In this document: one piece after another, positions 66 to 14,510 of the stretch
Layout: every line of letters begins with the position of its first letter
Position numbering within the stretch: position 1 is the stretch's first letter
Assembly: GCF_002259705.1 (NCBI RefSeq)
Contig: NZ_MWWT01000005.1
Coordinates: 434,001 to 498,000, forward strand
DNA from: Alloscardovia macacae
Lineage (GTDB): Bacteria > Actinomycetota > Actinomycetes > Actinomycetales > Bifidobacteriaceae
Length of the DNA stretch: 64,000 nucleotides
Direction of reading: 5' to 3'
Notes under the pieces: model-generated
The model's input: the letters and a program-made list of their open reading frames with translations, nothing else
Told to the model about the DNA's origin: nothing
Databases searched by the model: none
Made by a program: the position numbers and the translations under genes

Positions 66-449
66 ATGAGTGATATGCATACACTAGACATGGCTCACAT
101 CCTTCCACGTCTGAAGCACGACGAGCAGGGACTCGTCGCGGCCGTCATTCAGCAGTATGACTCTGGTCGTGTGCTCATGGTGGGGTATATGAATGATGAG
201 GCGCTACACCGCACGCTGACCGAGGGGCGAGTGACCTTCTGGTCGCGCTCTCGCCAGGAGTTCTGGCGTAAGGGAGACACGTCCGGGCACGCGCAGTACG
301 TGAAGAAGGTGGAGCTCGACTGTGATGGAGATGCTCTGCTCATTCAGGTCGACCAGGTGGGGGCAGCCTGCCACACGGGCGAGTATTCCTGCTTTGATGC
401 GGGCGGCGAGCTTCCTGCACGCGTGGGACATGTCCCGGAGAAGGAATAG
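66..449 (+). CDS. hisI: Phosphoribosyl-AMP cyclohydrolase
   Basis: This 127-residue protein is the stand-alone HisI that opens the adenine ring of PR-AMP, the third step of histidine biosynthesis. It shows the family core: VGYMNDEAL near residue 40, the TFWSRSRQ segment, KGDTSGH near residue 70, the metal-binding DCDGDA near residue 86, and the paired cysteines of [11 protein letters not shown] near residue 100. The length fits single-domain HisI; the pyrophosphatase HisE is a separate gene 1.8 kb downstream. The start is three bases after the hisF stop, so the two are co-transcribed. Confidence 0.95.
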
Positions 450-484
450 TCTGCTCACTGTAGACGAATTAAGGAGGATTCAGG

Positions 485-1579
485 ATGAACTTAGCATACA
501 TTCCGTCGCCATCGATATCGAGTTTTTCGCTCGGACCGCTGACCATCCGTTTTTACGCGCTGGCTATCCTCGTGGGCATCGTCGTGGCTGTCTGGCTCAC
601 GAGCCGCCGCTGGATAGCGCTGGGTGGCTCGTTCGACCAGATTCTCGACATCACCATCGTCGCGGTTCCGTCCGGCATCGTAGGCGCGCGGCTCTACCAC
701 GTCATAACGACGCCGGAGCTCTATTTCGGCTCTAATGGCAATTTTTCTGATATTTTCAAGATTTGGAACGGCGGACTTGGTATCTGGGGAGCGGTACTTC
801 TGGGAGTGCTCGCCGTATGGGCATGGGCACGCTATAAGAAGTATTCCATCGCTATGCTCGTGGATGCTGTGGCTCCAGGGCTGCTCATCGCACAGGGCAT
901 AGGCCGCCTCGGAAACTGGTTTAACCAGGAGCTGTACGGTTCTCCTACCACGCTTCCGTGGGGTCTGAAGCTGAATGAGTCCACTAACGCCATCGGCTCG
1001 AGCGAGTCCTGCTACACGGGACAGTCCTGCCCTACAGGAGTGCTCTACCATCCGACCTTCCTCTACGAAATGATCTGGAACTTTATCGGAGCAGCACTGC
1101 TTCTGTGGCTCGGCGCTCAGATTACCAAGCGCTTTAAGGCTGGAAGTCAGTTCGCTCTGTACGTCATGTGGTACACGGCTGGACGCACGTGGATAGAGAT
1201 GCTGCGCATCGACCGTGCCCACGAGTTCCTCGGCTTGCGCGTGAACGTGTGGGTTTCTCTCATCGTCTTTGTCCTGGCAGTGGTCGCCTTCGTGCTCATC
1301 CAGCGTTCGGGCAAGAGCACTGCGGAGCTGAAGGAAGAATTGGACTACGTCACAGACCTCGAAAAGCAGGTCGAACTCGGCGTCCTGACCTCACGCCAGC
1401 TGCGCGATAAGCTCACGGATGAAGCACGTGCTGCTGCACGCGAAAAGCGAGAAGAAAAGCAGGCTCTCAGCGAGGAAAAGAAAGCGCACGAAAAGAGCGA
1501 AAAGGATCTCTACGAGGAAGCGAAGGCTCTCGTGGCGAAAGCGCATAAGGATCAGAAGGCCGAGTCGGACGAGAAGTAA
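485..1579 (+). CDS. lgt: Prolipoprotein diacylglyceryl transferase
   Basis: Lgt transfers diacylglycerol from phosphatidylglycerol to the lipobox cysteine of prelipoproteins in the membrane. Visible marks are the early motif RFYALAILVGI, the NGGLGIWGA signature near residue 95, the GRLGNWFNQELYG signature near residue 140, and YHPTFLYEMIWN near residue 190, spread over about seven hydrophobic segments. The last 75 residues form a hydrophilic, highly charged Lys/Glu-rich cytoplasmic tail, common in actinobacterial Lgt. An AAGGAGG ribosome site lies seven bases before the ATG. It sits between hisI and rpe on the same strand. Confidence 0.96.
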   Translation: MNLAYIPSPSISSFSLGPLTIRFYALAILVGIVVAVWLTSRRWIALGGSFDQILDITIVAVPSGIVGARLYHVITTPELYFGSNGNFSDIFKIWNGGLGIWGAVLLGVLAVWAWARYKKYSIAMLVDAVAPGLLIAQGIGRLGNWFNQELYGSPTTLPWGLKLNESTNAIGSSESCYTGQSCPTGVLYHPTFLYEMIWNFIGAALLLWLGAQITKRFKAGSQFALYVMWYTAGRTWIEMLRIDRAHEFLGLRVNVWVSLIVFVLAVVAFVLIQRSGKSTAELKEELDYVTDLEKQVELGVLTSRQLRDKLTDEARAAAREKREEKQALSEEKKAHEKSEKDLYEEAKALVAKAHKDQKAESDEK

Positions 1580-1616
1580 CGCCGCCCGTCTCCTACACAC
1601 CCTAAAATGAGGAACT

Positions 1617-2282
1617 ATGAGTATACAAATAGCACCAAGCATTCTTTCCGCAGACTTCGTGAACCTCGAGCGCGAGCTGCAGGCCATCTCCACAGCTGAC
1701 CTCGTCCACGTGGACGTCATGGATCATCACTTCGTTCCGAACCTCACGCTCGGCGAGCCTATCGTCAAGCGCATCTGCGAAGTAAGCCCTATCCCGGTGG
1801 ATGCACACCTTATGATAGAGGACCCTGACCGCTGGGCTCCTGAGTTCGCGAAGGCAGGAGCTGCATCGGTCACCTTCCACATGGGAGCTGCACACGCTCC
1901 AGTGCGCTTGGCACGCCAGCTGCATGACATGGGCGTGAAGGCATGCTTTGCTGTGCGTCCAGCTGAACCAGTGGAGCCTATCTTCGACATCCTCGATGAG
2001 TTCGACATGATTCTCATCATGACGGTGGAGCCAGGATTCGGCGGGCAGAAGTTCCTCGATAACCAGATGAATAAGGTGCGTCGCCTGCGCGATGAGATTA
2101 CTCGTCGAGGCCTGAGCACGAAGATTCAGGTGGACGGCGGTGTGAGCCCATCGACGGCACACATCGTAGCTGCTGCAGGTGCAGACGTGCTCGTGGCAGG
2201 TTCCGCTGTATATGGTGCAGAAAATCCTGCTGAAGCTATCGCTTCCATCCGTGAGGAAGCAGAAAAGGCATTTCGTGCATGA
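1617..2282 (+). CDS. rpe: Ribulose-phosphate 3-epimerase
   Basis: Interconverts ribulose 5-phosphate and xylulose 5-phosphate. The 221-residue TIM barrel has the family start [10 protein letters not shown], the catalytic/metal segments [12 protein letters not shown] near residue 32 and DAHLMIEDP near residue 62, [12 protein letters not shown] near residue 140, and the phosphate-binding VDGGV and AGSAVYG stretches. In bifidobacteria-like organisms this feeds the transketolase/transaldolase pair found near 44-47 kb in this window. The stop overlaps the start of hisE, implying translational coupling. Confidence 0.96.
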
Positions 2283-2542
2283 AGACTTTCGAATCCCTCT
2301 ATGCAGAACTCAGTGCGAAGGCAGCATCTGGGGCTGAAGACTCACTGACTGTGGACGAGCTGAAGAAGGGCACACACTTCATAGGCAAGAAGATCCTCGA
2401 AGAAGCAGGGGAGACCTGGACAGCGGCCGAGTATGAAGGCGCAGCCCGCACCGCCGAAGAGATGAGTCAGCTCATCTACCATCTGCAGGTCATGATGATT
2501 CAGAAGGGCATTAGCCTTGAGGACTTGTATAAGAACCTGTAG
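2279..2542 (+). CDS. hisE: Phosphoribosyl-ATP pyrophosphatase
   Basis: An 87-residue all-alpha MazG-fold protein that hydrolyses PR-ATP to PR-AMP, the second step of histidine biosynthesis. It has the expected start [11 protein letters not shown], the [15 protein letters not shown] metal-binding helix (E..E) near residue 35, and the [14 protein letters not shown] helix. The ATG overlaps the rpe stop (ATGA). A strong hairpin with a T-run follows, which separates it from hisG. Confidence 0.93.
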
Positions 2543-2600
2543 GCAGTGTCTGTGCTTTAAACTTCGCCTACGTCTCATTCGGTGAGACTGTGCAGAAGCC

Positions 2601-2658
2601 CCGCGAGGAGTTCGGGTAGAATGTGGAAAATATTTTACCCGAACTCCTTGCGGTTTTT
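2601..2658 (+). terminator. Intrinsic terminator or attenuator between hisE and hisG
   Basis: Arms 2601-2618 and 2636-2653 form an 18-bp stem with one G-U pair and a 17-base loop, followed by TTTTT. It ends the hisI-lgt-rpe-hisE unit. Because hisG starts only 34 bases after the stem, it could also control read-through into hisG. Confidence 0.85.
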
Positions 2659-2686
2659 ACGCGTTTTCCTCTGAAAGGCTCTGTAT

Positions 2687-3538
2687 ATGCTGAAGATAGC
2701 TGTACCGAATAAAGGCATGCTCTCCGAGCCAGCCTGGGATCTGCTGAAAGAAGCAGGTTATAAGCTGCGCTCGAATCCACGTCAGCTCGTCGTCGAGGAT
2801 GAGGAAAATGATATCCAGCTCTTCTACCTGCGTCCTCTTGACATAGCAGTATATGTGGGAAGTGGCATTATCGATGTGGGTATTACGGGGCGCGATATGC
2901 TGCTGAACTCGCAGACTGAAGCCATAGAGCACATGGCACTGGGATTCGGCGCATCTACCTTCCGTTTCGCAGCGCCGAACGAAAGCTCTATCCGGACTGT
3001 AGAAGATCTGGATGGAAAGCGCATAGCCACGTCCTTCGACAAGGTCGTGGCGGATTATCTGGCTGGTCGTGGTCTGAATGCGCGGATCGTGCACCTCGAC
3101 GGGGCTGTAGAGTCTTCTGTACAGCTGGGTGTGGCTGATGCCATCGCCGATGTGGTCTCCACAGGGACCACTTTGCGTAACGCTGGACTGCATATCTTTG
3201 GTGACCCTATCGTCACTTCAGAAGCCATCGTGGTACGCTCACCTCGCGTGGATACGTCTGACCGTGATCTCATTAAGTTCCAGCGCCGCATCCAGGGTGT
3301 GCTTACCGCACATAGCTATGTACTGATGGATTACGATATCCCGGTGGCGAAGGTCGCGCAGGCTGTGGCCATTACGCCAGGATTTGAGTCACCTACTGTG
3401 TCCCCACTGCATGACTCACAGTGGGCAGCTGTGCGCGCTATGGTTCCACGCTCGCAGATGAATACGCTCATGGATCAGCTGTACGACGTAGGGGCGCGCG
3501 CCATTATCATTACGAGCATTCAGGCTTCGCGTATGTAG
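2687..3538 (+). CDS. hisG: ATP phosphoribosyltransferase (long form)
   Basis: Catalyses the first and feedback-controlled step of histidine biosynthesis, ATP + PRPP to PR-ATP. At 283 residues it is the long, hexameric HisG with a C-terminal regulatory domain, so no HisZ partner is needed. Visible marks are IAVPNKGML at the start, [16 protein letters not shown] near residue 60, the PRPP loop [15 protein letters not shown] near residue 150, and the C-terminal ferredoxin-like part with [21 protein letters not shown]. It is placed directly behind a terminator, unlike most his operons, so its expression may be separately set. Confidence 0.96.
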
Positions 3539-3605
3539 TGGGTTTTGGTCTCTCGGGGAGGGGACGTTATAGGGCGTCGTAGGGCGTCGTAGAGCCTACC
3601 CGATG

Positions 3606-3694
3606 AAAAAATGCGACTTTTCTAGAAGTCTATCGAAAAAAAGACGGTGTGATCCGCGAAAAATCGACGAACTTCTAGAAAAGTCGCATTTTTT
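3606..3694. repeat. 24-bp perfect inverted repeat
   Basis: Arms 3606-3629 and 3671-3694 are exact reverse complements over 24 bases (core TGCGACTTTTCTAGAAGT) around a 41-base loop. Six As begin the left arm and six Ts end the right arm, so transcripts in either direction would carry a long hairpin with a U-tail. It may be a bidirectional terminator after hisG, but the arms and loop are longer than the other terminators here. A tandem AGGGCGTCGT duplication lies just upstream at about 3570-3590. Confidence 0.8.
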
Positions 3695-3773
3695 CGAATC
3701 AGAACCATCCCATCCGACACGCGCCAGCCGCCACGCCCGTGCACCATAGCCCGCATGGAGTAGAATAAAAGCG

Positions 3774-4412
3774 ATGACAGACATGAGACAGGATGAGAAA
3801 GATATTCCCAGCGAAAAGGATGCGCAGACGCTGAGCCTCAGGCCGAGTAACAGGATAGTTACCTGGCCTAATTTCGTGAGCCTTCTGCGCCTGCTCACTA
3901 TTCCGCTCATCGCTATACTCATCGACCATGGGCATCTCGTTTATGGTCTCATTATGCTGGCTATCTCCGCTCTGACGGACTGGCTGGATGGGTTCCTGGC
4001 CCGCTCATTGAATCAGATTACGAAGCTCGGACAGATTCTCGACCCTATAGCAGACCGTCTTCTCATTTTCTGCTCCATCCTGGCGCTCGGCTTTGCGGGC
4101 ATTATTCCCTGGTGGTTTATTATCATAGTCGGCTCTCGCGAAGTGGTTCTCAGCATCCTTGTGCTTGTTCTCGCTCAGTTTAACTATGGTCCACTTCCGG
4201 TGCACTTCGTGGGTAAGACGGCCACGGCCATGATTATGGCGGATATCCCGCTACTCATGATCTCTGGCATGGGCACGTCCACTCTTTTCTCCATCCTCGA
4301 ATATGCGGGCCTGGCCTTAGCTATTTGGGGGATTAGCCTGTACTGGGTGGGGGGATTCATCTATATGTACCAGGGTGTGAAGCTCATTCGGAAAGACTGT
4401 TATCGTGGCTAG
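3774..4412 (+). CDS. pgsA: CDP-alcohol phosphatidyltransferase, phosphatidylglycerophosphate synthase type
   Basis: A 212-residue membrane enzyme that joins CDP-diacylglycerol to a polyol phosphate, most likely glycerol 3-phosphate, giving the phosphatidylglycerol precursor. The signature DWLDGFLAR...G...D...D is complete near residues 63-90, and four to six hydrophobic helices follow. A 30-residue polar N-terminal tail precedes the TWPNFVSLLRLLTIP helix. Position ahead of DUF881-sbp-DUF881-FHA-merR matches the actinobacterial pgsA2 locus. The DUF881 gene overlaps its end by 8 bases. The exact polar substrate is inferred. Confidence 0.88.
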   Translation: MTDMRQDEKDIPSEKDAQTLSLRPSNRIVTWPNFVSLLRLLTIPLIAILIDHGHLVYGLIMLAISALTDWLDGFLARSLNQITKLGQILDPIADRLLIFCSILALGFAGIIPWWFIIIVGSREVVLSILVLVLAQFNYGPLPVHFVGKTATAMIMADIPLLMISGMGTSTLFSILEYAGLALAIWGISLYWVGGFIYMYQGVKLIRKDCYRG

Positions 4413-5406
4413 TTCAGATAGCCTGTACGACGAGAATGGCAGTACTCCTGTCCCGAGCATTATCCCTCCAGAGTCTGAGCAGCGTCCCGTGCGCGTGCGC
4501 TCCACATTTTCCAGTGATGCGAAAAAACTCGGTCGCCATCGCATCGATGAGGAGAGTATGGCGCGCGAGCACGATGTGCGCTCCATTCAGAATCATAAGC
4601 GACAGAGTTCATCGCAGCTTCTCGAAGACCTTATGCGCCATCCTCTCGACCCCATGTTCGAGGATTCTACCCTCACCGCGCATACCATTACGCCATTTCA
4701 GCGTATCGTCACGCAGGTCATCTCATTTCTCCTGTGCGTGGTCGTGGGCGTGGCTGGGACGCAGATAGTGCGAAATCTTCAGGGGAATTCTCGAGAGAAG
4801 GTACGCACCGAGCTGGCAGCTCAGGTGACGAGTGCTACGAATCATGCGCAGAGTATAGAGAATGACATTAAGCAGCAGCAGGCTCAGATAGCGCAGCTGA
4901 CCCGTCAGGCGCGCGCGGACTTGAGAACCGTGCAGAAGCTTCGGGATGTGAATATCCTGACAGGGCAGACTGCTGTCAGGGGAGATGGAGTCACAGTTAC
5001 GCTCATGAATCCTATGGATGCGTCGAATCAGGCGACGCAGGGCCGTGTGACGGAAGGACAGTCGAAGGGCAGGGTGACTGATGCGCAGCTTCAGCTGGTC
5101 GTCGCGCTCCTGTGGGCGGGCGGTGCAGAGGCTATTAGTGTAAATGATCAGCGTTTGGGCCCGCAGACGGCTATCCGTGCGGCGGGAGATACCATCCTCG
5201 TGGGCGTGTCCGGCGTGCAGAGCCCGTATGTGGTGCGTGCTATAGGCGATGCGTCTGACCTGCAGGCTGAGGTTCAGGCCGAGGGGAATACGGCACGCAT
5301 GTTCCGCTCTCAGAATATAGACATGAGTGTAGTGCATTCGCGTGGACTTCAGTTACCGGCTGCGAGTACAGTAGTAACTGAGTATGCACGGAAAGGAGAA
5401 GGGTAG
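4405..5406 (+). CDS. DUF881 family membrane protein, first copy
   Basis: A 333-residue protein with a long charged cytoplasmic N-terminus, one transmembrane helix near residues 100-120 (FQRIVTQVISFLLCVVVGVAG), a coiled-coil stretch (ENDIKQQQAQIAQLTRQARADL) and a DUF881 globular domain (GVTVTLMNP, LLWAGGAEAISVNDQRL, VVRAIGDASDLQAEV). The family lies beside small basic protein in actinobacteria and is implicated in envelope or division work, but its activity is unknown. It starts with GTG inside the end of pgsA and is linked to the next gene by a one-base overlap. Confidence 0.9.
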   Translation: MASSDSLYDENGSTPVPSIIPPESEQRPVRVRSTFSSDAKKLGRHRIDEESMAREHDVRSIQNHKRQSSSQLLEDLMRHPLDPMFEDSTLTAHTITPFQRIVTQVISFLLCVVVGVAGTQIVRNLQGNSREKVRTELAAQVTSATNHAQSIENDIKQQQAQIAQLTRQARADLRTVQKLRDVNILTGQTAVRGDGVTVTLMNPMDASNQATQGRVTEGQSKGRVTDAQLQLVVALLWAGGAEAISVNDQRLGPQTAIRAAGDTILVGVSGVQSPYVVRAIGDASDLQAEVQAEGNTARMFRSQNIDMSVVHSRGLQLPAASTVVTEYARKGEG

Positions 5407-5738
5407 TGGCAGCAGTTCTGGGCATTATCGTCGGGGTAGTCGTGGGCATCTTCGTGCACACGGATGTTCCGGTATGGCTTCAGCCGTACCTGCCTATTAT
5501 GGTCGTCGCGGCTTTGGACGCGCTTTTAGGTGCCGGACGGTCGTTTTTTGAGCGCAATTTTTCCGACCGCGTATTCGTCATCTCCTTCCTCTCGAATGTG
5601 CTGACGGCTGTGCTTCTCGTCTATATCGGCAGCTTACTCGGAGTGAGCTCGCAGCTGACCACTGCAGTGATAGTGGTGCTTGGTATCCGCATCTTCTCGA
5701 ACGTATCTGCTATCCGCCGCTTTATCTTTAGCGCGTAG
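5406..5738 (+). CDS. sbp: Small basic family protein (Sbp)
   Basis: A 110-residue hydrophobic protein with about four short membrane helices; the family (DUF1290) typically has the motif LPxMVVAALDALLGGxR, here LPIMVVAALDALLGAGRSFFERNF near residue 30. Sbp proteins sit between two DUF881 genes in Actinobacteria and Firmicutes, next to ftsZ-region or pgsA-region genes. The GTG start shares a base with the preceding stop codon. The molecular role is not established. Confidence 0.9.
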   Translation: MAAVLGIIVGVVVGIFVHTDVPVWLQPYLPIMVVAALDALLGAGRSFFERNFSDRVFVISFLSNVLTAVLLVYIGSLLGVSSQLTTAVIVVLGIRIFSNVSAIRRFIFSA

Positions 5739-5750
5739 GAAGAGGGAAAA

Positions 5751-6575
5751 TTGGCAGAAGAAAACGAAAAAGAAGCAGACAGCACGCAAACAGGCGTCTT
5801 TCCTGTGGTCGAAAAGCCACGTAAGCTTTCGCGCGCGGCCAGCTCCACCATATCGTCGTGGAGCGAGTTTCTGCGCGAGCTGCGCCATAACAGGCACACA
5901 CGTGGCCTCGTCAGCTCTCTCATACTTATAGCGCTCGGAGCGGGCGTGGGGTATGCGTTCATGGCACAGCAGCGCATTACGAACACCTCCTACGATGCGC
6001 TCAGCGAGTCCGAACTCGTCACACTGCTCGACGAAACGAATAATCAGATAACGAGGCTCGAAACGCAGCGTACACAGCTCAGCCAGCAGCTCGACTCTAT
6101 CCAGACAGCGAATAACAAGCAGCAGGAGATAGAACGCATCGCCCAGGAGAACAAGGATGCGAACGACATCCTCAGCGGAAGCACAGCAGCATACGGGCCA
6201 GGGATTCAGGTGACTATCTCCCAGGGTACGAAGAAAGACGTATCAGCGGCATCCCTCTTTACCGTCATCGAAGAGCTGCGAAATGCGGGCGCAGAAGTAA
6301 TCCAGATAGGGGACGTGCGCGTGGTAACCTCCACCTACGTAACAGACACGAAAACGGGTCTCGTTTCGGATGGAGTCCTGCTCGAAGCTCCGTATGTGAT
6401 AAAAGCCATAGGGGATAAGACCGCGCTGCAGAACGCCATAGATATTAGTGGTGGAGTAGGCTCGTCACTTCGTGTAAACTATGGTTCCACAGTAACTGTG
6501 GTCCAGAAAAGTAAAGTAGACATTACGGCTTTGGCACACAGTTTTGAATATAAGTACGCACAGACAGTAGAATAA
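5751..6575 (+). CDS. DUF881 family membrane protein, second copy
   Basis: A 274-residue paralogue of the protein at 4405-5406. It has a polar N-terminus of about 45 residues, one membrane helix near residues 50-70 (GLVSSLILIALGAGVGYAFM), a coiled coil (DETNNQITRLETQRTQLSQQL) and the DUF881 domain with GPGIQVTIS, ELRNAGAEVIQIGDVRV and YVIKAIGDKTALQNAI. TTG is used as start, with GAGGG seven bases before it. It closes the DUF881-sbp-DUF881 triad and is followed five bases later by the FHA gene. Confidence 0.9.
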   Translation: MAEENEKEADSTQTGVFPVVEKPRKLSRAASSTISSWSEFLRELRHNRHTRGLVSSLILIALGAGVGYAFMAQQRITNTSYDALSESELVTLLDETNNQITRLETQRTQLSQQLDSIQTANNKQQEIERIAQENKDANDILSGSTAAYGPGIQVTISQGTKKDVSAASLFTVIEELRNAGAEVIQIGDVRVVTSTYVTDTKTGLVSDGVLLEAPYVIKAIGDKTALQNAIDISGGVGSSLRVNYGSTVTVVQKSKVDITALAHSFEYKYAQTVE

Positions 6576-6580
6576 AGGTT

Positions 6581-7018
6581 ATGGATATATCGATTCCTAC
6601 AGCAGGTGAAACGACAGTAATAGGTATGCCGGCTATCACGATGCCGGTGACATCGACAGGTGAGCGGGCGCTCACTGCAGAAGATGTGGAGACGATTTCG
6701 CGCCTCGGGGATGGGGCAGCACTGCTCATCGCTACGCGCAGTGGCGCAGGTTCGCGCTATCTTCTCGACGCGGATGTAGTGCGTGCAGGGCGTGATGCGG
6801 CCAGTGACATCATTCTGGATGATAATACCGTCTCGCGTGAGCATACCGTCTTTACGCGAACTCCTGAGGGGTATGTGCTCTCGGATGCGGGAAGCCTGAA
6901 TGGAACGTATGTAAACCGTGAGCGTGTGGATAGCGCCGTGCTGAAGAACGGGGATGAGATTATCATAGGTCGTTTCCGCTTCGTGTATTTTATGAAGTCG
7001 GCCATGAGTGTGGCGTAG
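6581..7018 (+). CDS. garA: GarA/OdhI-like FHA domain protein
   Basis: A 145-residue protein with an N-terminal regulatory tail holding two threonine-rich patches (PTAGETTVIG and PVTSTGERALT), then an FHA domain from about residue 50. FHA marks are AGRDAASDIILDDNTVSREHTVF and SDAGSLNGTYVNRERV. In relatives, phosphorylation of a tail threonine by Ser/Thr kinases makes the FHA fold bind its own tail, switching control of 2-oxoglutarate and glutamate enzymes. The neighbouring DUF881 and MerR genes match the garA locus; gcvH, present there in mycobacteria, is missing here. Confidence 0.85.
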   Translation: MDISIPTAGETTVIGMPAITMPVTSTGERALTAEDVETISRLGDGAALLIATRSGAGSRYLLDADVVRAGRDAASDIILDDNTVSREHTVFTRTPEGYVLSDAGSLNGTYVNRERVDSAVLKNGDEIIIGRFRFVYFMKSAMSVA

Positions 7019-7033
7019 GCATACGCGGATTTT

Positions 7034-7792
7034 TTGATGGTAGACGAGGCAGAACTCACGCAGGATGCCGTGCAGTCGCAGCAGTCCCAGCAGCCGCAGC
7101 TGAGCCTGCACGTCCGTCTGGCGGACCGTGAAGACCTGAGTAGTCGCGGGGTTGTTCAGGGAGCGCTTTTCGAACTGGAATCCGACGAGGAAGAAGTCGG
7201 ATACCGGGGAGTAATCGCATCTAAAGTGGCGGGCATCACATACCGACAGCTGGATTACTGGGCCCGCAAGCACATCGTCGAGCCGAGCGTCACGCCGTCG
7301 TCTGGGTCCGGCTCGCGGCGACTGTATTCCTTTAAGGACATCGTTATCCTATCGGTGGCGAAAAAGCTGCTCGATGCGGGTGTGAACCTGAATAACGTAA
7401 CGACGGCACTGGCATACCTTGAGCAGCGCCGCATAGGACAGCTGGAAAATGTGACCATCATGTGTGATGGCGTGCGCATATACGAGTGCACGAATGAGAC
7501 GGAGATGCTGGATCTCATGCGTGATGGGCATGCCGTCTTCGGCGTGTCTGTGGGCGTCATGTGGCACGAGATTTCAGCCGCACTGAAAGCAGAAACATCT
7601 GTGAGCAAAGCGGATAATACGCGTGCACATGCTACTGAAGCGATGCATCGCGCCGAGATGGTCGATGAGACGAATGGGTTAGATCTCGGTTCGGAGTTCT
7701 CTGTGCGTGATGTGGCAGACCTGACTGAGCAGCGTATGCGAGAGAAGCTCGAGAAACAGAAGCGTGCGCGGGTGCAGGGAGCAGCGCTGTAA
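7034..7792 (+). CDS. ftsR: MerR-family regulator, FtsR type
   Basis: A 252-residue MerR-type regulator. The winged helix lies near residues 60-130: KVAGITYRQLDYWARKHIVEPS followed by RRLYSFKDIVILSVAKKLLDAGVNLNNVTTAL. It lacks the cysteines of metal-sensing MerR proteins. The homologue next to garA in corynebacteria activates ftsZ; that function is inferred here from synteny. About 50 polar residues precede the DNA-binding domain. It is the last + strand gene before the putative dif site. Confidence 0.82.
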   Translation: MMVDEAELTQDAVQSQQSQQPQLSLHVRLADREDLSSRGVVQGALFELESDEEEVGYRGVIASKVAGITYRQLDYWARKHIVEPSVTPSSGSGSRRLYSFKDIVILSVAKKLLDAGVNLNNVTTALAYLEQRRIGQLENVTIMCDGVRIYECTNETEMLDLMRDGHAVFGVSVGVMWHEISAALKAETSVSKADNTRAHATEAMHRAEMVDETNGLDLGSEFSVRDVADLTEQRMREKLEKQKRARVQGAAL

Positions 7793-7807: not shown

Positions 7808-7835
7808 TTCTGACATAACGTACATTATCGGACAT
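7808..7835. other. dif: Candidate dif site (XerC/XerD recombination site)
   Basis: The site reads as an 11-bp arm TTCTGACATAA, a 6-bp centre CGTACA and an 11-bp arm TTATCGGACAT. The inner arms (ACATAA / TTAT) are near-palindromic, and the reverse strand gives TTATGTCAGAA, close to the conserved XerD arm (TTATGTTAAAT in E. coli). The layout 11-6-11 and the TTAT/ATAA core match dif sites. It is intergenic, and gene orientation in the window flips at this point. No xer gene is in the window, so function is inferred. Confidence 0.75.
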
Positions 7836-7879
7836 TTGGGCGGGTTTGTTTTTGCAATTTTTTCTTTATGTCTAGTGGA

Positions 7880-8878
7880 TCATTTCTGACATGTTATGCG
7901 GGTGCTTGCACATATAATGTTCTCACTCAATTTTTCTACTTTCCGTCCGTTTGCGTTCCATGTGGCGGTTGCGCGGTTTCCTGCTGGTGTCTGCCCGTTT
8001 GGCGTGTTGTAGGTGAATTGGTTGCTGATGTTTGCGCCTGTAGTGGTATCCCAGACACTCTGGTCGGTTATTGTGTAGTGTAAGCCGTTTGGGTTTATCG
8101 TATCGCTGAACCAGAGGGCTTCTCCACCGACTCCTGTACCCGTGGTGATGAAGGTTGTGTTGCGCATGCGGTCAGCGCTAATGCCCTGCTCAATACGCTT
8201 AACTGGAGGGCTTGGCGGTTCTTTCACGCGTGGCTGGTCTTACGCCAACACAATAACCACGAGGGAACGGTTACCACCCGACGTCTCACGGTATGCAAGG
8301 CTATTTATAGTATCTACACCGCCATTCAACGGAACATTAGTTTTATAAACAGCCCCGTTATGCGCGTATGTCTTAGTTCCTACTTCTGCATTCCATGCAT
8401 TTCTCCATGTTTGCTCTGTGTGTCCGCCTGTAGCATTAGCGATAGTGTTATCGCTACTCTTGACAGCTCCCACGCCAAACACTCGACAGTTCGCGTTCCT
8501 ATCCCCGTTATGACGAGTCGCGTAGTTATTTACACACTCATTAAGCGCGTTCTCGGTAGCGGTATGAATATGCGTATTCGTATCGTTCCACGCTTTACCG
8601 CCAAGCGTGCCCGTAAGAACGTTCAGAACCGTAGCGTCATTAGCTGGACCGAAGTTATCATTTGTTGCCCACACAACGGTTGATGTGTAGTTTCCTGAGC
8701 CTTGGTTACCGTTCGTAGAACCGCCACCACCCGTATTATTATTCGGGGTTGACGGAGTGGTGTCTGCATAAGCGAGACCGCCTAGTGCTAACGATACCGT
8801 GAGAACGCCCACGCCCACCTTGAGAAGGCTTTGACGTATGCGCGTGCTCACGGGTTTATGTCGAGCAAATAAAGACAT
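7880..8878 (-). pseudogene. Surface-adhesin-like gene interrupted by an in-frame stop and 3'-truncated
   Basis: The first part, 8240-8878, encodes 212 residues with a signal peptide (basic start, hydrophobic LLKVGVGVLTVSLALGGLAYADTT), an Asn/Gly/Thr-rich linker and a domain with two cysteines. A TAA at 8240-8242 ends it, but the same frame continues without another stop for about 119 codons (DQPRVKEPPSPPVKRIEQGISADRM..., TGTGVGGEALWFSDTI, ITDQSVWDTTT) to 7880. The second part, Thr/Asn-rich with a proline hinge, resembles a repeat domain of Gram-positive pilin or adhesin proteins. No LPXTG anchor follows, so the gene also seems cut short. Readthrough or sequencing error remain possible. Confidence 0.6.
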
Positions 8879-8929
8879 ACTTTTCCCTTTCTGTTTCCCT
8901 TTCCTGAACTAGATTTTTGTTATGGATAC

Positions 8930-8961
8930 GCCCCTCACAGTGTTAAAGAACTATGAGGGGC
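8930..8961. repeat. Short stem-loop between two minus-strand genes
   Basis: GCCCCTCA at 8930-8937 pairs with TGAGGGGC at 8954-8961 around a 16-base loop. No T-run follows on the minus strand, so it is a weak terminator at best. It lies downstream of the secreted protein at 8976-9950 and upstream of the adhesin remnant. Confidence 0.45.
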
Positions 8962-8975
8962 AAGACTAAAACGTG

Positions 8976-9950
8976 TTAACCCACAGCGAGATTACAATTC
9001 CCAGCCGCAACACACGGACTCACGCCTTGTGCTTTTTCAAAGTCTTCCAGTGACATCCCATCAAATTGGCTATACTTCTGTGTGCTTGGTGTTGGTGTGT
9101 TTGTCCCAGTATTTGCGCGTGCTGAGCCTGCTCCACCGCCACTATTACGGGGAGCGCTGTTTGCACTTCGCCCCATATTGCGTGTGGTGTTGCGCTGTGC
9201 GCGCTGAGCGTTCGCCTGAGCCTGTTGTGCGCGTGCCTGCTGTTCTGCTTGCTCTCGTGCTTTCTGGTCTGCTACGCGTTTGGCTTCGACACTCTGGTTG
9301 ACCGTATCGCTCGCGGACTGGATAGGCTGGCTTGCTTTCTGGAGGGCTTCTACGGTCGCCTGCTTGTCGTTCAGCGTGTTCTGCAACGTGTCGATGAGTG
9401 TCTTCAGAGAGTCGCGTGTAGCATTATCCGCTACCTGACCATCCGTAGACTGGTAGACTTGGTTAGCAGTGTCGAGAACCTGCTGTGCTTGAGCGCGCGC
9501 AACCTCTACCTGCTTCACCTCATACGACTTCTCCACACGCCCTATAGCCGTCTTCAACGCGCTCGTAGCCTTCACGATACGCTCAGTCTCCACCTGACGG
9601 CTAGACGGGTCAAACCCCCACATAGACACGAGACCCAAACCACAATTAAGCGCCTTCTGCTCGGCAACCTTCACCGAACGTGCTTTACTAAAATCCGTAA
9701 ACACGCTCACATCAGCCACACTATCCGCGCTCGTCACCTTCTCGCCTATAGTTTCAGCCTGCTTCACACTCGCCTGCCACGTAGAAACAGCCGACTCATA
9801 CCCACCATTCACCGACACACACGCCGACACACGCGACTGACGAACAGAAAAAGTTCCTCCAGCAAGCACAAGCGCTATGCCACATATACTGGAAGTGATA
9901 ATCATCGTTCGACGGCGAGGATGACTGAAAGATGCGGAAGAATTGGACAT
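8976..9950 (-). CDS. Unrecognised secreted or membrane-anchored coiled-coil protein
   Basis: I do not recognise this 324-residue protein. It has a basic start (HPRRRT), a hydrophobic segment at about residues 17-35 (ITSSICGIALVLAGGTFSV) acting as signal or anchor, then an extracellular helical region with long alpha-helical heptads (EVKQVEVARAQAQQVLD, AKRVADQKAREQAEQQARAQ). A Ser/Asn/Gly/Thr-rich linker follows near residues 255-290 and a short C-terminal module containing VSPCVAAGNC. Four cysteines could form disulfides. It stands alone beside the dif-like site and the adhesin remnant, with its own promoter region; both may be recent acquisitions. Confidence 0.7.
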   Translation of the reverse strand: MSNSSASFSHPRRRTMIITSSICGIALVLAGGTFSVRQSRVSACVSVNGGYESAVSTWQASVKQAETIGEKVTSADSVADVSVFTDFSKARSVKVAEQKALNCGLGLVSMWGFDPSSRQVETERIVKATSALKTAIGRVEKSYEVKQVEVARAQAQQVLDTANQVYQSTDGQVADNATRDSLKTLIDTLQNTLNDKQATVEALQKASQPIQSASDTVNQSVEAKRVADQKAREQAEQQARAQQAQANAQRAQRNTTRNMGRSANSAPRNSGGGAGSARANTGTNTPTPSTQKYSQFDGMSLEDFEKAQGVSPCVAAGNCNLAVG

Positions 9951-10000
9951 AATATGATACTCTTTTATACTCTCGCAGGAAACGCAAACGGTACTAGAGT

Positions 10001-10039
10001 AGCAAAAAGGCTGAACAGAAGGTCTCCCCCTGCTCAGCC
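10001..10039 (-). terminator. Intrinsic terminator of the HAD phosphatase/rbpA unit
   Basis: On the minus strand GGCTGAGCAG pairs with CTGTTCAGCC (10030-10039 with 10009-10018, one wobble) and is followed by TTTTTGC. It lies 20 bases after the stop of the HAD gene. Confidence 0.85.
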
Positions 10040-10059
10040 GTTTCGAAACGAGCGAAAAA

Positions 10060-10779
10060 CTAACGAATGATGTTCTCGAAAACGTCGTTTACAGTGTCGA
10101 ACAGATCATCCACAGTCTCAGCCACAGCATCACAGTTATGTTCTTCGAACTCGCCGTCCGCTGCATATCCCCAGCCAGCGCCGATGGCAGGAATGCCGTT
10201 CTCGTGCGCGCCGTCGATGTCGGTCCAGCGGTCTCCCACCATCACAGCGCGGTCTCCAGCAGACTCATCGTAATGCAGCTTTTCAAACGCATACGTGATG
10301 ACCTCAGACTTATGCAGACGGCTCGTGTCCGACCCCTCAGAAGCGCCATAAATGCCCGTCACGAGGTACTCGAGGCCTATGTGCTCACAGAGGCGGATAG
10401 CTTCACGCTGAGGTTTCGCTGTAGCTACAGCAAGTACGTAGCCTGCCTCGCGCAGCTTCTGCAGCTGACCGAGATAGCCGAAGTACATACGGCTGAGGTA
10501 CAGGCCAGGAATCATCTGACCAGGGCTCTGCGGGTCATCGAAGTATGGCTTCGTGTACGACTCGCGGAAGAAGTCCACAGCCTCCTGCGCATTTTCTTCG
10601 AAACCATGCTCAGAGAAGGAATCCAGCAGCGGTGGACCTATGAACTTATTCAGCTCAGACTCGGACGGAAGCTCCTTACCGAAGTGTTCATATGTGAGGC
10701 GCACCGAGGCGAGGATGCCGGTGTCGGACTCGACAGTCGTGCCGTCGAGGTCGAGTAAAATAATGCGACGATTACTCAT
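10060..10779 (-). CDS. HAD-superfamily phosphatase, phosphoglycolate phosphatase-like
   Basis: A 239-residue HAD hydrolase. Motif I is DLDGTTVES near residue 10 with the nucleophilic aspartate; motif II is the T of AVATAKP near residue 118; the motif III lysine is likely in RLHKSEV; motif IV is MVGDRWTDIDGA near residue 185. The cap domain is the alpha-helical type 1. The family dephosphorylates small phosphate esters such as phosphoglycolate; the real substrate cannot be read from sequence. Its start overlaps the end of rbpA by eight bases, so the two are co-translated. Confidence 0.85.
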   Translation of the reverse strand: MSNRRIILLDLDGTTVESDTGILASVRLTYEHFGKELPSESELNKFIGPPLLDSFSEHGFEENAQEAVDFFRESYTKPYFDDPQSPGQMIPGLYLSRMYFGYLGQLQKLREAGYVLAVATAKPQREAIRLCEHIGLEYLVTGIYGASEGSDTSRLHKSEVITYAFEKLHYDESAGDRAVMVGDRWTDIDGAHENGIPAIGAGWGYAADGEFEEHNCDAVAETVDDLFDTVNDVFENIIR

Positions 10780-11119
10780 AATCTGGGAACCACCCTTCGC
10801 GCTTCATCTGCAGGCGCTTATCTAACAGTTCTTTTAGCTCTTCTTCCGTACGACGCTCCAGGAGCATATCCCAGTGCGTACGGGTAGGCTTAGTTATCTC
10901 ATCTGGCTCTTCATCTTCAGCGGTGGCGAGCTTCGCCGTCTGACCGCAGCGGCACTCCCACTCTTTCGGTGGTTCCGCCTCCGAAGATAAAGGCAGAATG
11001 GTCTTATGGCCACGCGGGCAGATGTATGCCACTTCGTTACGCTCAGCGAACTCGACATTACTGTCTGATTCGAGCGACTTCGCGCCTATACTCATGCCTC
11101 TGAGGCTGCGTTCTGCCAT
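10772..11119 (-). CDS. rbpA: RNA polymerase-binding protein RbpA
   Basis: A 115-residue actinobacterial transcription factor that binds the primary sigma factor and RNA polymerase and stabilises open complexes. It has the family start MAERSLRGMSIGAKSLESD, a central fold with two cysteine motifs (YICPRGH and WECRCG, possibly zinc-binding), and the conserved sigma-interacting end RTHWDMLLERRTEEELKELL. An extra four cysteine/histidine positions agree with the zinc-bearing RbpA class. RBS GAAGGAGA precedes the ATG. Confidence 0.95.
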   Translation of the reverse strand: MAERSLRGMSIGAKSLESDSNVEFAERNEVAYICPRGHKTILPLSSEAEPPKEWECRCGQTAKLATAEDEEPDEITKPTRTHWDMLLERRTEEELKELLDKRLQMKREGWFPDYE

Positions 11120-11218
11120 GATGTCTCCTTCATATCGTTAGTATCTACCGTACACAATCTCACCGACGAGGGAAATATTCCCACTTTCTCAGTCTGGTGG
11201 TATTCCTGTGTATTAAAA

Positions 11219-11256
11219 GTCCAGCGGGTTAGTCCAGCGGGTTAGTCCAGCGGGTT
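11219..11256. repeat. Three 13-bp tandem units spanning the helY stop codon
   Basis: GTCCAGCGGGTTA occurs at 11219-11231 and 11232-11244, and a 12-base third copy at 11245-11256. The units are the reverse complement of the last helY codons (Asn-Pro-Leu-Asp-stop), so the gene's 3' end has been copied beyond its stop. Confidence 0.9.
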
Positions 11257-14091
11257 CAGCGCCACGATGCCATGGTTAACGAGGTCATACGCTCTACTGG
11301 CCACTTCAGCCAGCCTCGTATCTTCGCGGCTTCGCGCCACGTGAGCGAGCTGCTGGAGAACGTCACACACTCGCTTGCATGCGCGGACGAAGTCCCCGGC
11401 CGTCAGGGCGGCTCGGCTGTGGCGTTCCGAGTCGCTGCCTATGCCACTCGTACGGAGAACCTCGCTCAGCGGCTTATCCGTAACCCAGTTAAACATAATC
11501 TCTACGAGGCCGAAGTCCAGCTGTGCGGTCGGCTCGTAGTCGAAAGACTCACACACAAATCGCAGTGATGTATCCTCGCTTTTTATCTGCGCTACTTTTG
11601 TGGCGAGTGTCCCCTGCGCGCCTCCTGGATAGTGAGCTGGTTCAGACCCAGCATCGCGGCGCGCCTCGTAGACGAATCCGCTCACTAAGGCAGCGCATTC
11701 TTCTGCAGATATGTCGGAGAAGATGCCATCGAGTATGCATTGTGCGAGCAGAAGGTCATTTTCGCTGTAAAGCTGACGTAGGAGCTCGCCGCGTGCGGTA
11801 AGCGTGTAGGATGTGGCGGAGGTGGCGGATATGGTGGTTTGCCCGTCGGACTCGTTGACGTGGAGGGCGTTCATCGTATCGAGCTCGTGCTCCTGCCCAG
11901 TAGCATCCCAGTCTACGCTACTGCTCTCTCCCACTTCTTCGATGTAATTGAGCGTATGGAGGATGTCACAGATTTTATCGAAACGACGAGAAACTGACTG
12001 TGTGCGCCACTCTAGGCGATCTTCGAGACGCTCGAGTTCGCGCGTCTGGCGAGCCCAGCGGTGTCCCCAGCGGATATGCTGCTCGAAGTCTGGGCAGGCT
12101 TTGCATGGGTGGCGCATTTCACGCGAACGCAGGATGGATATCTTCTTATCGAGTGCTGCGAATGCTTTCTTTCGAGCTTTTTCCGAAGGGAAAATAGTGG
12201 CCTTCAGTATGCGACGGTCGCGCTTTTCGAGCTCGGAAAGGTCCATGCGGATGCGCATAAACTCCGCGAAGTCTCCCATCTCACATGCCATAGCCTTCTC
12301 ATACTGGCGTGTAGTGGTATATGCCGCTTCTATCTGAGAGGACAGGCCATCTGCAGACTCATTTGCTTCCCACTGTGCGAAGGACTTATTCAGCGTACTG
12401 CGCGTCTGAGCGAGCGTATGCGTGTTCAGGAGGTTTACCGCCATATTAAAAGTCGGCGTAAAACTCGAATGAAGCGGATACACGCGCTTCGAAGCGAGAT
12501 TCGCTACGGCTTGCGGCGAAAAGTCTGCATGATCCACCACTACTGCGTGTCCTATGGTATCGATACCACGGCGCCCAGCACGGCCAGTGAGCTGCGTGAA
12601 CTCACCGGGAGTGAGCATCACATGTCCCATGCCATTAAACTTCTCGAGCTTTTCCACCACCACGCTGCGCGCTGGCATGTTAATGCCCAGAGCGAGAGTA
12701 CCCGTAGCGAAGACTATCTTAATGAGACCGCGCTCGAAGAGTGCTTCGACGATGTGGCGGAAGAGTGTAATCATCCCCGCATGGTGACTCGCGAAGCCGA
12801 GCTCGAGTGAGGCGACGAACTGATGGAAGTGCAGTGCCTTCTTCTCGTCAGGAGTGAGCTGGCCATCTACCATCTCGTTTACTATGCGGCGGATCTCGCG
12901 TACCTCTGCTTCCGTGGTCAGGTCGAGGTCTGCCTGCAGGCACTGTGCGAGAGCCTGGTCACATCCAGTTCGAGAGAAGATAAAATATATGGCTGGCAGC
13001 ATGCCGAGGAAGTCCAGCTCATCCACCACAGCCCAGCGCTTCGGGGTGTAGTGGCGGATAGGGCCGGGCATGCGGCCGGCTCGGCCGGGACGACCTTTGC
13101 GCCCCTTATACCCACCGCGATACCCACCGCGCGAGCTGCCATTCCTTGCGCTGAACGACGGTCTTTTTTCCTCCGCTTTCTGGCGTGCAGCCTGGTCGAG
13201 GTTCTGGAGAGCTTGAATAAGCGAAGGGTTCAGGAGTGACCGTTCCCGTGAAGTGTCCCGTGAAGAAGGATCAGTGGAAGTATCAGAAGAATTGCCCTCA
13301 GAAGATGCATACAGGTCGAACACCTGCGGCTCTTTACTCGGCTCGGACTGCAGCAGCACATGCTGAAGAAGTGGAACCGGGCGCGTTTCGGACATCACGA
13401 GCGTCGTGTCTCCGCGGATAGAGCGAATCCAGGCCGTAAAGTCCTCCACGTTCGAGACGGTGGCTGAAAGTCCGATGATGCGCACAGACTGAGGTAAGTG
13501 AATGATTACTTCCTCCCAGACCTGCCCGCGCATACGGTCAGCCAGGTAATGAACCTCATCGAGGATGACGTAATGCAGTGCTTCCAGCTTCGTAGAGCGC
13601 TCGTAAATCATGTTTCTGAGCACTTCTGTGGTCATGACGAGGATGTCCGCGTCCGCATTCAGTGACATATCCCCCGTGAGCAGGCCCACGCGCTCTGCGC
13701 CGTACACATCCGCCAGCTCGTGGTACTTCTGGTTACTCAGCGCTTTGATAGGCGTCGTGTAGAACGCCTTCACGTTATGGTGCTGCGCGAGGAAGATGGC
13801 GAAGTCCGCGACGACGGTCTTTCCGGCCCCCGTCGGCGCCGCGACGAGTACGTTATGATCGTTTTCGAGAGCCTCGCACGCGTCCTTCTGAAATGCGTCG
13901 AGCTCGAAGCTCAGCGACTGCGCGAACTGCGCGGTCAGCGTTCGGCTCGCTTTCTGACGTGCTCGAAATACCGCATAGCGCGCGGCTGGGCTCAAGTTTT
14001 CCTCGTCTGTGGATGCCTGGTTACTCGTTCGGTTACTCGTCTGGTTACTCGTAGTGCGCCCGTTCGTCGCTGGATTCTGCTGTGTGTTCAA
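11242..14091 (-). CDS. helY: HelY-type superfamily II (Ski2/Mtr4-like) RNA helicase
   Basis: A 949-residue helicase. Walker A is AAPTGAGKTVVAD near residue 84; Walker B is the DEVH box of LDEVHYLADRMRGQ near residue 175; SAT (GLSATVSN) near 212; the second RecA domain has IYFIFSRTGCD, FATGTLALGINMPA and QLTGRAGRRG near residues 375-505. A 300-residue helical C-terminal DSHCT region follows, containing the HPCKACPD cysteine pair. A basic Gly/Arg loop (SRGGYRGGYKGRKGRPGRAG) near residue 320 probably binds RNA. The start is TTG preceded by AGGAAGAA. Its gene overlaps the following small membrane protein gene by 47 bases and lies next to pafBC, as in mycobacteria. Confidence 0.93.
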   Translation of the reverse strand: MNTQQNPATNGRTTSNQTSNRTSNQASTDEENLSPAARYAVFRARQKASRTLTAQFAQSLSFELDAFQKDACEALENDHNVLVAAPTGAGKTVVADFAIFLAQHHNVKAFYTTPIKALSNQKYHELADVYGAERVGLLTGDMSLNADADILVMTTEVLRNMIYERSTKLEALHYVILDEVHYLADRMRGQVWEEVIIHLPQSVRIIGLSATVSNVEDFTAWIRSIRGDTTLVMSETRPVPLLQHVLLQSEPSKEPQVFDLYASSEGNSSDTSTDPSSRDTSRERSLLNPSLIQALQNLDQAARQKAEEKRPSFSARNGSSRGGYRGGYKGRKGRPGRAGRMPGPIRHYTPKRWAVVDELDFLGMLPAIYFIFSRTGCDQALAQCLQADLDLTTEAEVREIRRIVNEMVDGQLTPDEKKALHFHQFVASLELGFASHHAGMITLFRHIVEALFERGLIKIVFATGTLALGINMPARSVVVEKLEKFNGMGHVMLTPGEFTQLTGRAGRRGIDTIGHAVVVDHADFSPQAVANLASKRVYPLHSSFTPTFNMAVNLLNTHTLAQTRSTLNKSFAQWEANESADGLSSQIEAAYTTTRQYEKAMACEMGDFAEFMRIRMDLSELEKRDRRILKATIFPSEKARKKAFAALDKKISILRSREMRHPCKACPDFEQHIRWGHRWARQTRELERLEDRLEWRTQSVSRRFDKICDILHTLNYIEEVGESSSVDWDATGQEHELDTMNALHVNESDGQTTISATSATSYTLTARGELLRQLYSENDLLLAQCILDGIFSDISAEECAALVSGFVYEARRDAGSEPAHYPGGAQGTLATKVAQIKSEDTSLRFVCESFDYEPTAQLDFGLVEIMFNWVTDKPLSEVLRTSGIGSDSERHSRAALTAGDFVRACKRVCDVLQQLAHVARSREDTRLAEVASRAYDLVNHGIVALNPLD

Positions 14092-14452
14092 TTCTTCCTG
14101 CTATGCTTTCAAGTTCTTCCTGAGAGTACCCATCCCACCTTTTCAGCGCATCATCATGACGACTTGCCTTACGCAGGTGGCTTTTTTCTACAGCTTCACG
14201 CGTGCGAGTGTAACGGTCGGTAGCATCCGTTAGTGGGCGTGCGAAGAAAGGAGTGGGGTCTTCGTCAGCTGCCTTTCGGGCAGTGTCGAGTTCAGAGTCG
14301 CTCAGCTGACCGAGGACTTCGGCTATCTGAGATCCGGTCTGCCCTGCCTTCGCCACAGCGTCCAGACCGTGTCGAAAGACGTAATACACTCCATACGCGA
14401 AGTTTCCGAAGAGGAATATCCACAGGAGCACCCATACCCATACTGGAACCAT
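14045..14452 (-). CDS. Small single-span membrane protein next to helY
   Basis: A 135-residue protein with one N-terminal hydrophobic helix (residues 3-27, VPVWVWVLLWIFLFGNFAYGVYY) and a charged cytoplasmic helical tail with DEDPTPFF and KRWDGYSQEELESIAGRIEH. A comparable small membrane protein lies beside helY in other actinobacteria, but I know of no function. The ATG is clear; the 3' end overlaps helY. Confidence 0.8.
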   Translation of the reverse strand: MVPVWVWVLLWIFLFGNFAYGVYYVFRHGLDAVAKAGQTGSQIAEVLGQLSDSELDTARKAADEDPTPFFARPLTDATDRYTRTREAVEKSHLRKASRHDDALKRWDGYSQEELESIAGRIEHTAESSDERAHYE

Positions 14453-14510
14453 ATCCGTTACTCTTATCGCTTAGCCGCTTACTTACCTACTTGCTTACTC
14501 GGCGTCGTTT

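Follow-up and report, generated by a model that had tools for sequence, protein, structure and literature searches.

The window, a stretch of 64,000 nucleotides (C16:434001-498000) on a 549-kb contig of the 20-contig Alloscardovia draft genome G000 (1,891,581 bases, 95% complete), contains a switch in the strand on which genes are carried. Judging from its open reading frames, plausible genes occupy the plus strand from 66 to 7792 and the minus strand from 7880 to 16463, and the gap left between the end of the last plus-strand gene and the first minus-strand frames holds a 28-bp sequence (C16:441,808-441,835; TTCTGACATAACGTACATTATCGGACAT on the plus strand). The initial annotation had described this sequence as a putative dif site with an 11-6-11 layout, a centre of CGTACA, a XerD-like arm on the minus strand, and an intergenic position exactly where strand use flips. 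All of these features were found as described, the layout to the base, with the minus-strand arm fitting a matrix of family sites and its assignment to XerD made by analogy. The features of the locus are collected in Table 1.

Table 1. Features at and around the predicted dif site, in window coordinates
Feature	Position	Strand	Description or basis
Predicted dif site	7808..7835	-	ATGTCCGATAA-TGTACG-TTATGTCAGAA on the minus strand; pattern, conservation, matrix
Putative XerC arm ATGTCCGATAA	7825..7835	-	Matrix of family sites; XerC assigned by analogy
Central region TGTACG, 6 bp	7819..7824	-	Base counts in 103 other genomes
Putative XerD arm TTATGTCAGAA	7808..7818	-	Matrix of family sites; XerD assigned by analogy
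Nearest RGGGGAG to the left	4978..4984	+	Points to dif
Nearest RGGGGAG to the right	10024..10030	-	Points to dif
FHA-domain gene	6581..7018	+	Conserved neighbour; nearest NCBIfam model OdhI, 129.5 bits (cut-off 200)
MerR-family regulator gene	7034..7792	+	Converges on dif
Insertion, 2.2 kb, from dif to the HAD gene	7836..10059	.	Not present at dif in four congeners
Remnant of a further domain	7880..8239	-	In frame of 8240-8878, past its stop codon
Putative surface adhesin, N-terminal 212 residues	8240..8878	-	Truncated; open frames of most listed relatives exceed 1100 residues
Putative exported protein gene	8976..9950	-	Beside the adhesin-like gene in some relatives
HAD-family hydrolase gene	10060..10779	-	Neighbour of dif in congeners
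rbpA-like gene (RNA polymerase-binding protein)	10772..11119	-	No more than 5 kb from dif in 18 of 20 one-contig relatives

The MerR-family gene, which we take from its position to be FtsR-like, encodes a protein whose best-scoring named relatives come from Alloscardovia criceti (60% identity), A. theropitheci (60%) and A. omnicolens (57%), with 60% identity over a shorter stretch to a protein of Pseudoscardovia radai, and 18 of the 20 one-contig relatives have a MerR-type gene within 5 kb of dif. In four congeners, dif is located between the HAD-type and MerR-type genes; the stop codon of the HAD gene precedes dif by 3, 17 and 26 bases in three of them and falls within the site in the fourth. 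In contrast with these congeners, the window carries an insertion on the HAD side of the site. The exported-protein product gave no Pfam family above cut-off, and the truncated product beside it, which is probably an adhesin, matched no Pfam or NCBIfam family. Counting the genome itself, matches to the exported-protein gene were found in 139 of 189 genomes and to the adhesin-like gene in 90, many of the former being weak (25-35% identity over a stretch apparently low in complexity). Both genes are adjacent in some genomes, for example on G004:C15, where the adhesin-like gene is a 1124-residue open frame with an end that looks like a cell-wall anchor. The downstream remnant shows 36-57% identity (E 0.006 or better) to sequence in 15 loci retrieved using the adhesin-like gene or its neighbour, and had no significant match to the intact G004 gene (best E 0.39). 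The adhesin-like gene in the insertion is broken, with its final fragment reaching to about 45 bases from dif.

The 28-bp sequence has the structure of a dif site, in that two 11-bp arms surround a 6-bp centre and the whole is partly palindromic. On the plus strand the arms are TTCTGACATAA and TTATCGGACAT; on the minus strand the order runs from XerC arm to XerD arm, with XerC putatively placed on ATGTCCGATAA and XerD on TTATGTCAGAA by analogy with known dif sites. The site was compared with CACGCCGATAATGCACATTATGTCAAGT, which PMC3025954 proposes as the dif of Frankia alni. Both are 28 bp long with an 11-6-11 layout and share the identical blocks CCGATAATG and TTATGTCA, whereas 9 of the 28 bases differ, these being located in the outer arms and at two central positions. 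According to the same paper, no actinobacterial dif had been confirmed experimentally as of 2011, and dif was predicted in 66 of 66 single-chromosome actinobacterial genomes, so bifidobacterial sites may well be listed in the supplement to that paper. A literature search by title returned no description of this dif site, or of the polar motif RGGGGAG (see below) in Bifidobacterium, although either could still have been published.

Searching the draft genome with up to three mismatches returned one occurrence of the 28-mer and likewise one of its 21-bp core, that is, one copy per chromosome in a draft that is 95% complete. No copy of the 28-mer appeared when the window was shuffled 100 times. 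A weight matrix built from the sites of 103 other genomes, with the window's own site left out, scored dif at 47.2 bits, whereas the second-best place on the 549-kb contig scored 0.1. A chance origin of the 28-bp match is excluded. With a looser pattern for the inner arms and one mismatch allowed, 26 places were found in the genome versus 10 for a reversed control; exact matches to this pattern numbered two, and the one other than dif, C16:119234, is in a region where the skew stays constant. Neither a second dif nor a better match, either of which would have spoken against the initial annotation, emerged from the pattern search of the whole draft genome or, on this contig, from the matrix.

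An attachment scar or pseudo-dif belonging to an XerCD-using element (IMEX), with the true dif elsewhere in the genome, would be in keeping with the 2.2-kb insertion directly on the XerC-arm side and with a XerD-arm-like sequence, two mismatches away, at 7884-7894. However, the genome search gave no other site, and in congeners that lack the insertion an identical core is flanked by the same pair of genes. Moreover, none of the three open frames in the insertion matches a Pfam recombinase or phage family, searches of plasmid and phage collections gave no match to the adhesin-like part, and a search of the plasmid collection gave none to its partner gene. The sequence at 7884-7894 was rejected as a relic of Xer-mediated insertion and carries no weight, because about one 11-mer with at most two mismatches is expected in the 4 kb scanned. 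We therefore regard an element scar as highly improbable at this position, and retain the reading of the 28-mer as the chromosomal dif.

The initial annotation had also pointed to dif sites of related Bifidobacteriaceae, and comparison with them bore out the site. Within the genus (five genomes, including that of the window), the core occurs once per genome without mismatch in all five. Across the family, the 21-bp core, with up to three mismatches, was present in 176 of 189 genomes, and in 155 of the 161 with completeness of at least 90% and contamination of at most 5%; because the sites were located via this core, its conservation is partly a product of selection. Base-by-base reading covered 104 loci (the window's included), drawn from 127 listed genomes among the 176 with a match. 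Among the 103 other sites, positions 5-11, 13, 15, 18-25 and 27 are each invariant or have a single exception, the bases of the centre are T in 99, G in 102, T in 98, A in 103, C in 97 and G in 99, and position 26 is G in 95, while positions 1-4, the outer four of the XerC arm, vary across the family. The inner seven bases of ATGTCCGATAA follow the family consensus. Relative to these other sites, that of the window has the majority base at every position from 5 to 27 and differs from most at position 28, where it has an A that is seen in 24 of the 103.

The 13 genomes in which the core was not found comprise six at 57-89% completeness and all seven members of genus g12 (G174-G180), whose genomes measure 0.6-0.9 Mb; the six misses among the 161 good-quality genomes all belong to this genus. 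A PF00589 recombinase was found in none of the seven g12 genomes, while RecA is kept in every one. Elsewhere, PF00589 gave four matches in G000, two in G003, and one and three in the incomplete genomes G010 and G168, with none in G161 (57% complete). The joint absence of dif and PF00589 recombinases from a genus that retains RecA raises the question of how chromosome dimers are handled there, and a genus devoid of both the site and these recombinases may be a new observation.

The turn in GC skew that the initial annotation had proposed as a check on the site is present. On this contig, which makes up 29% of the genome and on which skew was profiled, the best single change-point is at 442,237, only 0.4 kb from dif. 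GC skew is positive in every 20-kb bin ahead of the one that holds dif, falls to approximately zero past it, and later becomes negative. The cumulative skew of the contig peaks further on, at 483,412, 41.6 kb beyond dif, and it is here that the skew evidence is weakest; the curve is nearly flat over this stretch, with 15,992 at dif and 16,253 at the peak. The one-contig congener G003, profiled over 400 kb, has its core at 1,194,666-1,194,686, and both its change-point (1,194,942) and its cumulative maximum (1,194,918) are less than 0.3 kb away. In the 20-contig draft, dnaA is on another contig than dif. The distance from dif to dnaA was 0.435-0.498 of the circle (mean 0.476) in G003 and 20 of the 25 one-contig genomes in a set of 34, and 0.439, 0.495, 0.461 and 0.491 in four of the other five, so that in all these relatives dif is roughly opposite the replication origin.

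This placement bears on a second alternative, in which the 28-mer would be a terminator or a regulator-binding palindrome conserved for a reason other than dimer resolution. Its location between convergent genes and its imperfect palindromy would both suit such a role. However, its placement with respect to dnaA is maintained across 21 one-contig genomes, even at loci where the usual neighbours are missing within 5 kb (L128, L132, L134 and L137), and in genus g12 the site is absent along with the tyrosine recombinases. These observations argue strongly against a terminator or regulator-binding palindrome, a reading to which we attach very little credence, and favor a chromosomal dif.

The orientation of the heptamer RGGGGAG also switches around dif. 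This motif was chosen from 7-mers with 40 or more copies, ranked by the lowest strand bias that each showed in any arm of G000 and G003; AGGGGAG came first and GGGGGAG ninth, alongside other strand-biased words such as GTGGATG and TGTGGAT. On the contig, 116 of 120 copies are on the leading strand and the orientation flips between 438,977 and 444,023, on either side of dif; in G003, the count is 48 of 50 and the flip falls between about 1,192,982 and 1,195,295. The motif having been selected on these two genomes, independent tests are provided by a sample of G095, from genus g4 (probably Bifidobacterium), in which 64 of 67 copies are on the leading strand, and by the dif loci. Across 20 dif-centred loci of 10 kb each, all 126 copies point to dif, with 60 of them in the 1-2 kb bin that is home to the conserved genes, and in 84 further, shorter loci (G000 and G003 included) 118 point toward dif and 3 away, although these locus counts are not independent events because the loci share ancestry. 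The strand counts cover one of 20 contigs in G000 (29%) and 400 kb each of G003 (1.9 Mb) and G095 (2.6 Mb).

The polarity of RGGGGAG is independent of gene direction and of base composition. In frames running against the fork, as assigned by a crude labelling of open reading frames, 22 of 22 copies are still on the leading strand. On the contig, AGGGGAG (52 to 3) has the top z-score bias among the 21 heptamers composed of two A and five G, and GGGGGAG (64 to 1) among the 7 composed of one A and six G. Both heptamers exceed a hexamer-based prediction only mildly (64 against 45.7 and 52 against 48.8), and GGGGAG, with 136 copies toward and 5 away in the 20 dif loci, may therefore be the real core.

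The KOPS of E. coli is GGGNAGGG, and the SRS of B. subtilis is GAGAAGGG. RGGGGAG resembles both in being G-rich, on the leading strand and pointed at dif, but differs from both in sequence. The two known sequences were themselves considered as polar sequences here and rejected: GGGNAGGG is distributed 27 to 7 on the contig and 9 versus 2 in the 20 dif loci, but 16 toward and 19 away in G095, and GAGAAGGG, at 11 to 9 on the contig, is not cleanly polar. KOPS near dif are described in a passage of PMC5357621 as more than 90% leading-strand and as rising in concentration toward dif. Measured against that passage, RGGGGAG shows one of the two marks, since more than 90% of its copies are on the leading strand with a switch at dif, whereas a rise in density toward dif was not seen on the contig (18 per 100 kb within 50 kb, versus 10-32 in other bins). 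Based on its distribution, RGGGGAG is a candidate FtsK-orienting sequence of the Bifidobacteriaceae, and as a polar motif it may be new. We take dif to mark the convergence of skew and polar sequences, with no claim to the exact base at which forks stop; an excerpt of PMC3025954 argues that termination occurs at a site other than dif.

The genome encodes the proteins expected to act at such a site. XerD is encoded on contig C20 (TIGR02225, 348.8 bits, cut-off 329.6), as is XerC, for which TIGR02224 is the best family at 332.2 bits, just below its cut-off of 335.15, and there are two further PF00589 proteins. FtsK is encoded at C16:288908-291985 by a 1025-residue open frame with alpha, motor and gamma domains; the gamma domain scores 78.9 bits against PF09397 (cut-off 30.6), and the region matches the gamma structures 2ve8 and 2j5o by sequence. 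Aligned to 2ius, the stretch GYNRAARIIE, which we take to be the KOPS-reading helix, corresponds to GFAKAGRLMD in this protein. We lean slightly toward the view that in the Bifidobacteriaceae FtsK is oriented by RGGGGAG, or by its core GGGGAG, a sequence unlike those of E. coli and B. subtilis and read by a gamma recognition helix that is unlike that of 2ius. If true, RGGGGAG and dif together would provide a complete and testable map of the terminus machinery for this family.

In the XerCD-dif system, FtsK moves along DNA to dif, where it pairs two copies and activates XerD for resolution of the dimer. By the same scheme, homologous recombination between sister chromosomes would generate a dimer in Alloscardovia, and FtsK at the closing septum would pump the DNA in a direction set by polar sequences, probably RGGGGAG, until both dif copies meet. 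XerC would then occupy the ATGTCCGATAA arm and XerD the TTATGTCAGAA arm, the gamma domain of FtsK would activate XerD, and strand exchange around the 6-bp centre would split the dimer. Binding by XerCD, recombination at dif and the role of RGGGGAG are what we infer for this genome. Given the single copy, the conservation, the skew switch, the convergence of RGGGGAG, the presence of XerC, XerD and the FtsK gamma domain, and the joint absence of site and recombinases in g12, we put the probability that 7808-7835 is the chromosomal dif site of this Alloscardovia genome at about 0.96, a prediction drawn from sequence data. It appears to be an ordinary dif, of a kind that bacterial genomes normally carry, well supported by independent signs that agree. 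This would place the terminus of a little-studied bacterial genus, with several signs in agreement within a few kilobases, and a dif with named recombinases, FtsK and a candidate polar motif offers a ready test case.

While comparing the dif loci, we also noted additional Xer-arm-like sequences next to the site. In eight g4 genomes (G095-G101 and G103; loci L135, L136, L137, L138 and L249-L252), the first 300 bases after the XerD arm of dif hold inverted repeats, one to several in number and roughly 80 bases long, which begin approximately 10 bases from dif and contain further Xer-arm-like sequences, namely TCTGACATAA-N10-TTATATAC or close to it, followed by CTTACATAACG. In G095 the repeats form a tandem array with a period of 83 and 2.7 copies, and the unit was absent from 400 kb sampled elsewhere in that genome; no tandem array was found in L138. 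Similar single Xer-arm-like repeats are present in G017 and G040. The g4 repeats are possibly accessory Xer-binding sites. Folding energies over 70 bases at the 104 loci indicated no general hairpin tendency beside dif (mean best -21.8 to the right, -23.7 to the left and -21.4 further away).

Several genomes have extra, weaker matches to the dif pattern among the matches listed, where G028 and G060 also have two near-perfect dif-like sites each on separate contigs (loci L318, L317, L316 and L201). At L318 (G060:C37:115964-117984, around 1001), a partial dif directly precedes a complete one, as if an element had entered or left by Xer recombination. The sequence CCGATAATGGACATTATGTTC, with three mismatches to the dif pattern, occurs far from dif in G095-G097, G101, G102, G104 and G106 among the matches listed, and with one base changed in G103; in the three loci that were read (L313-L315), no open frame of at least 80 codons extends over it. 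A perfect palindrome, GACATAATGTACGTTATGTCA, with two XerD-type arms and TGTACG-like centres, is found in L320 (G029) and L321 (G079), far from the dif of each genome. Finally, scanning IMG/VR with the dif pattern returned 32 stretches, of which 23 have a centre that does not start with TGTA and may be chance matches. The centre starts with TGTA in the other nine, three of them with the exact core CCGATAATGTACGTTATGTCAG (L262, L278 and L282), and these contigs may be prophage calls that include a host dif, or elements that use dif.
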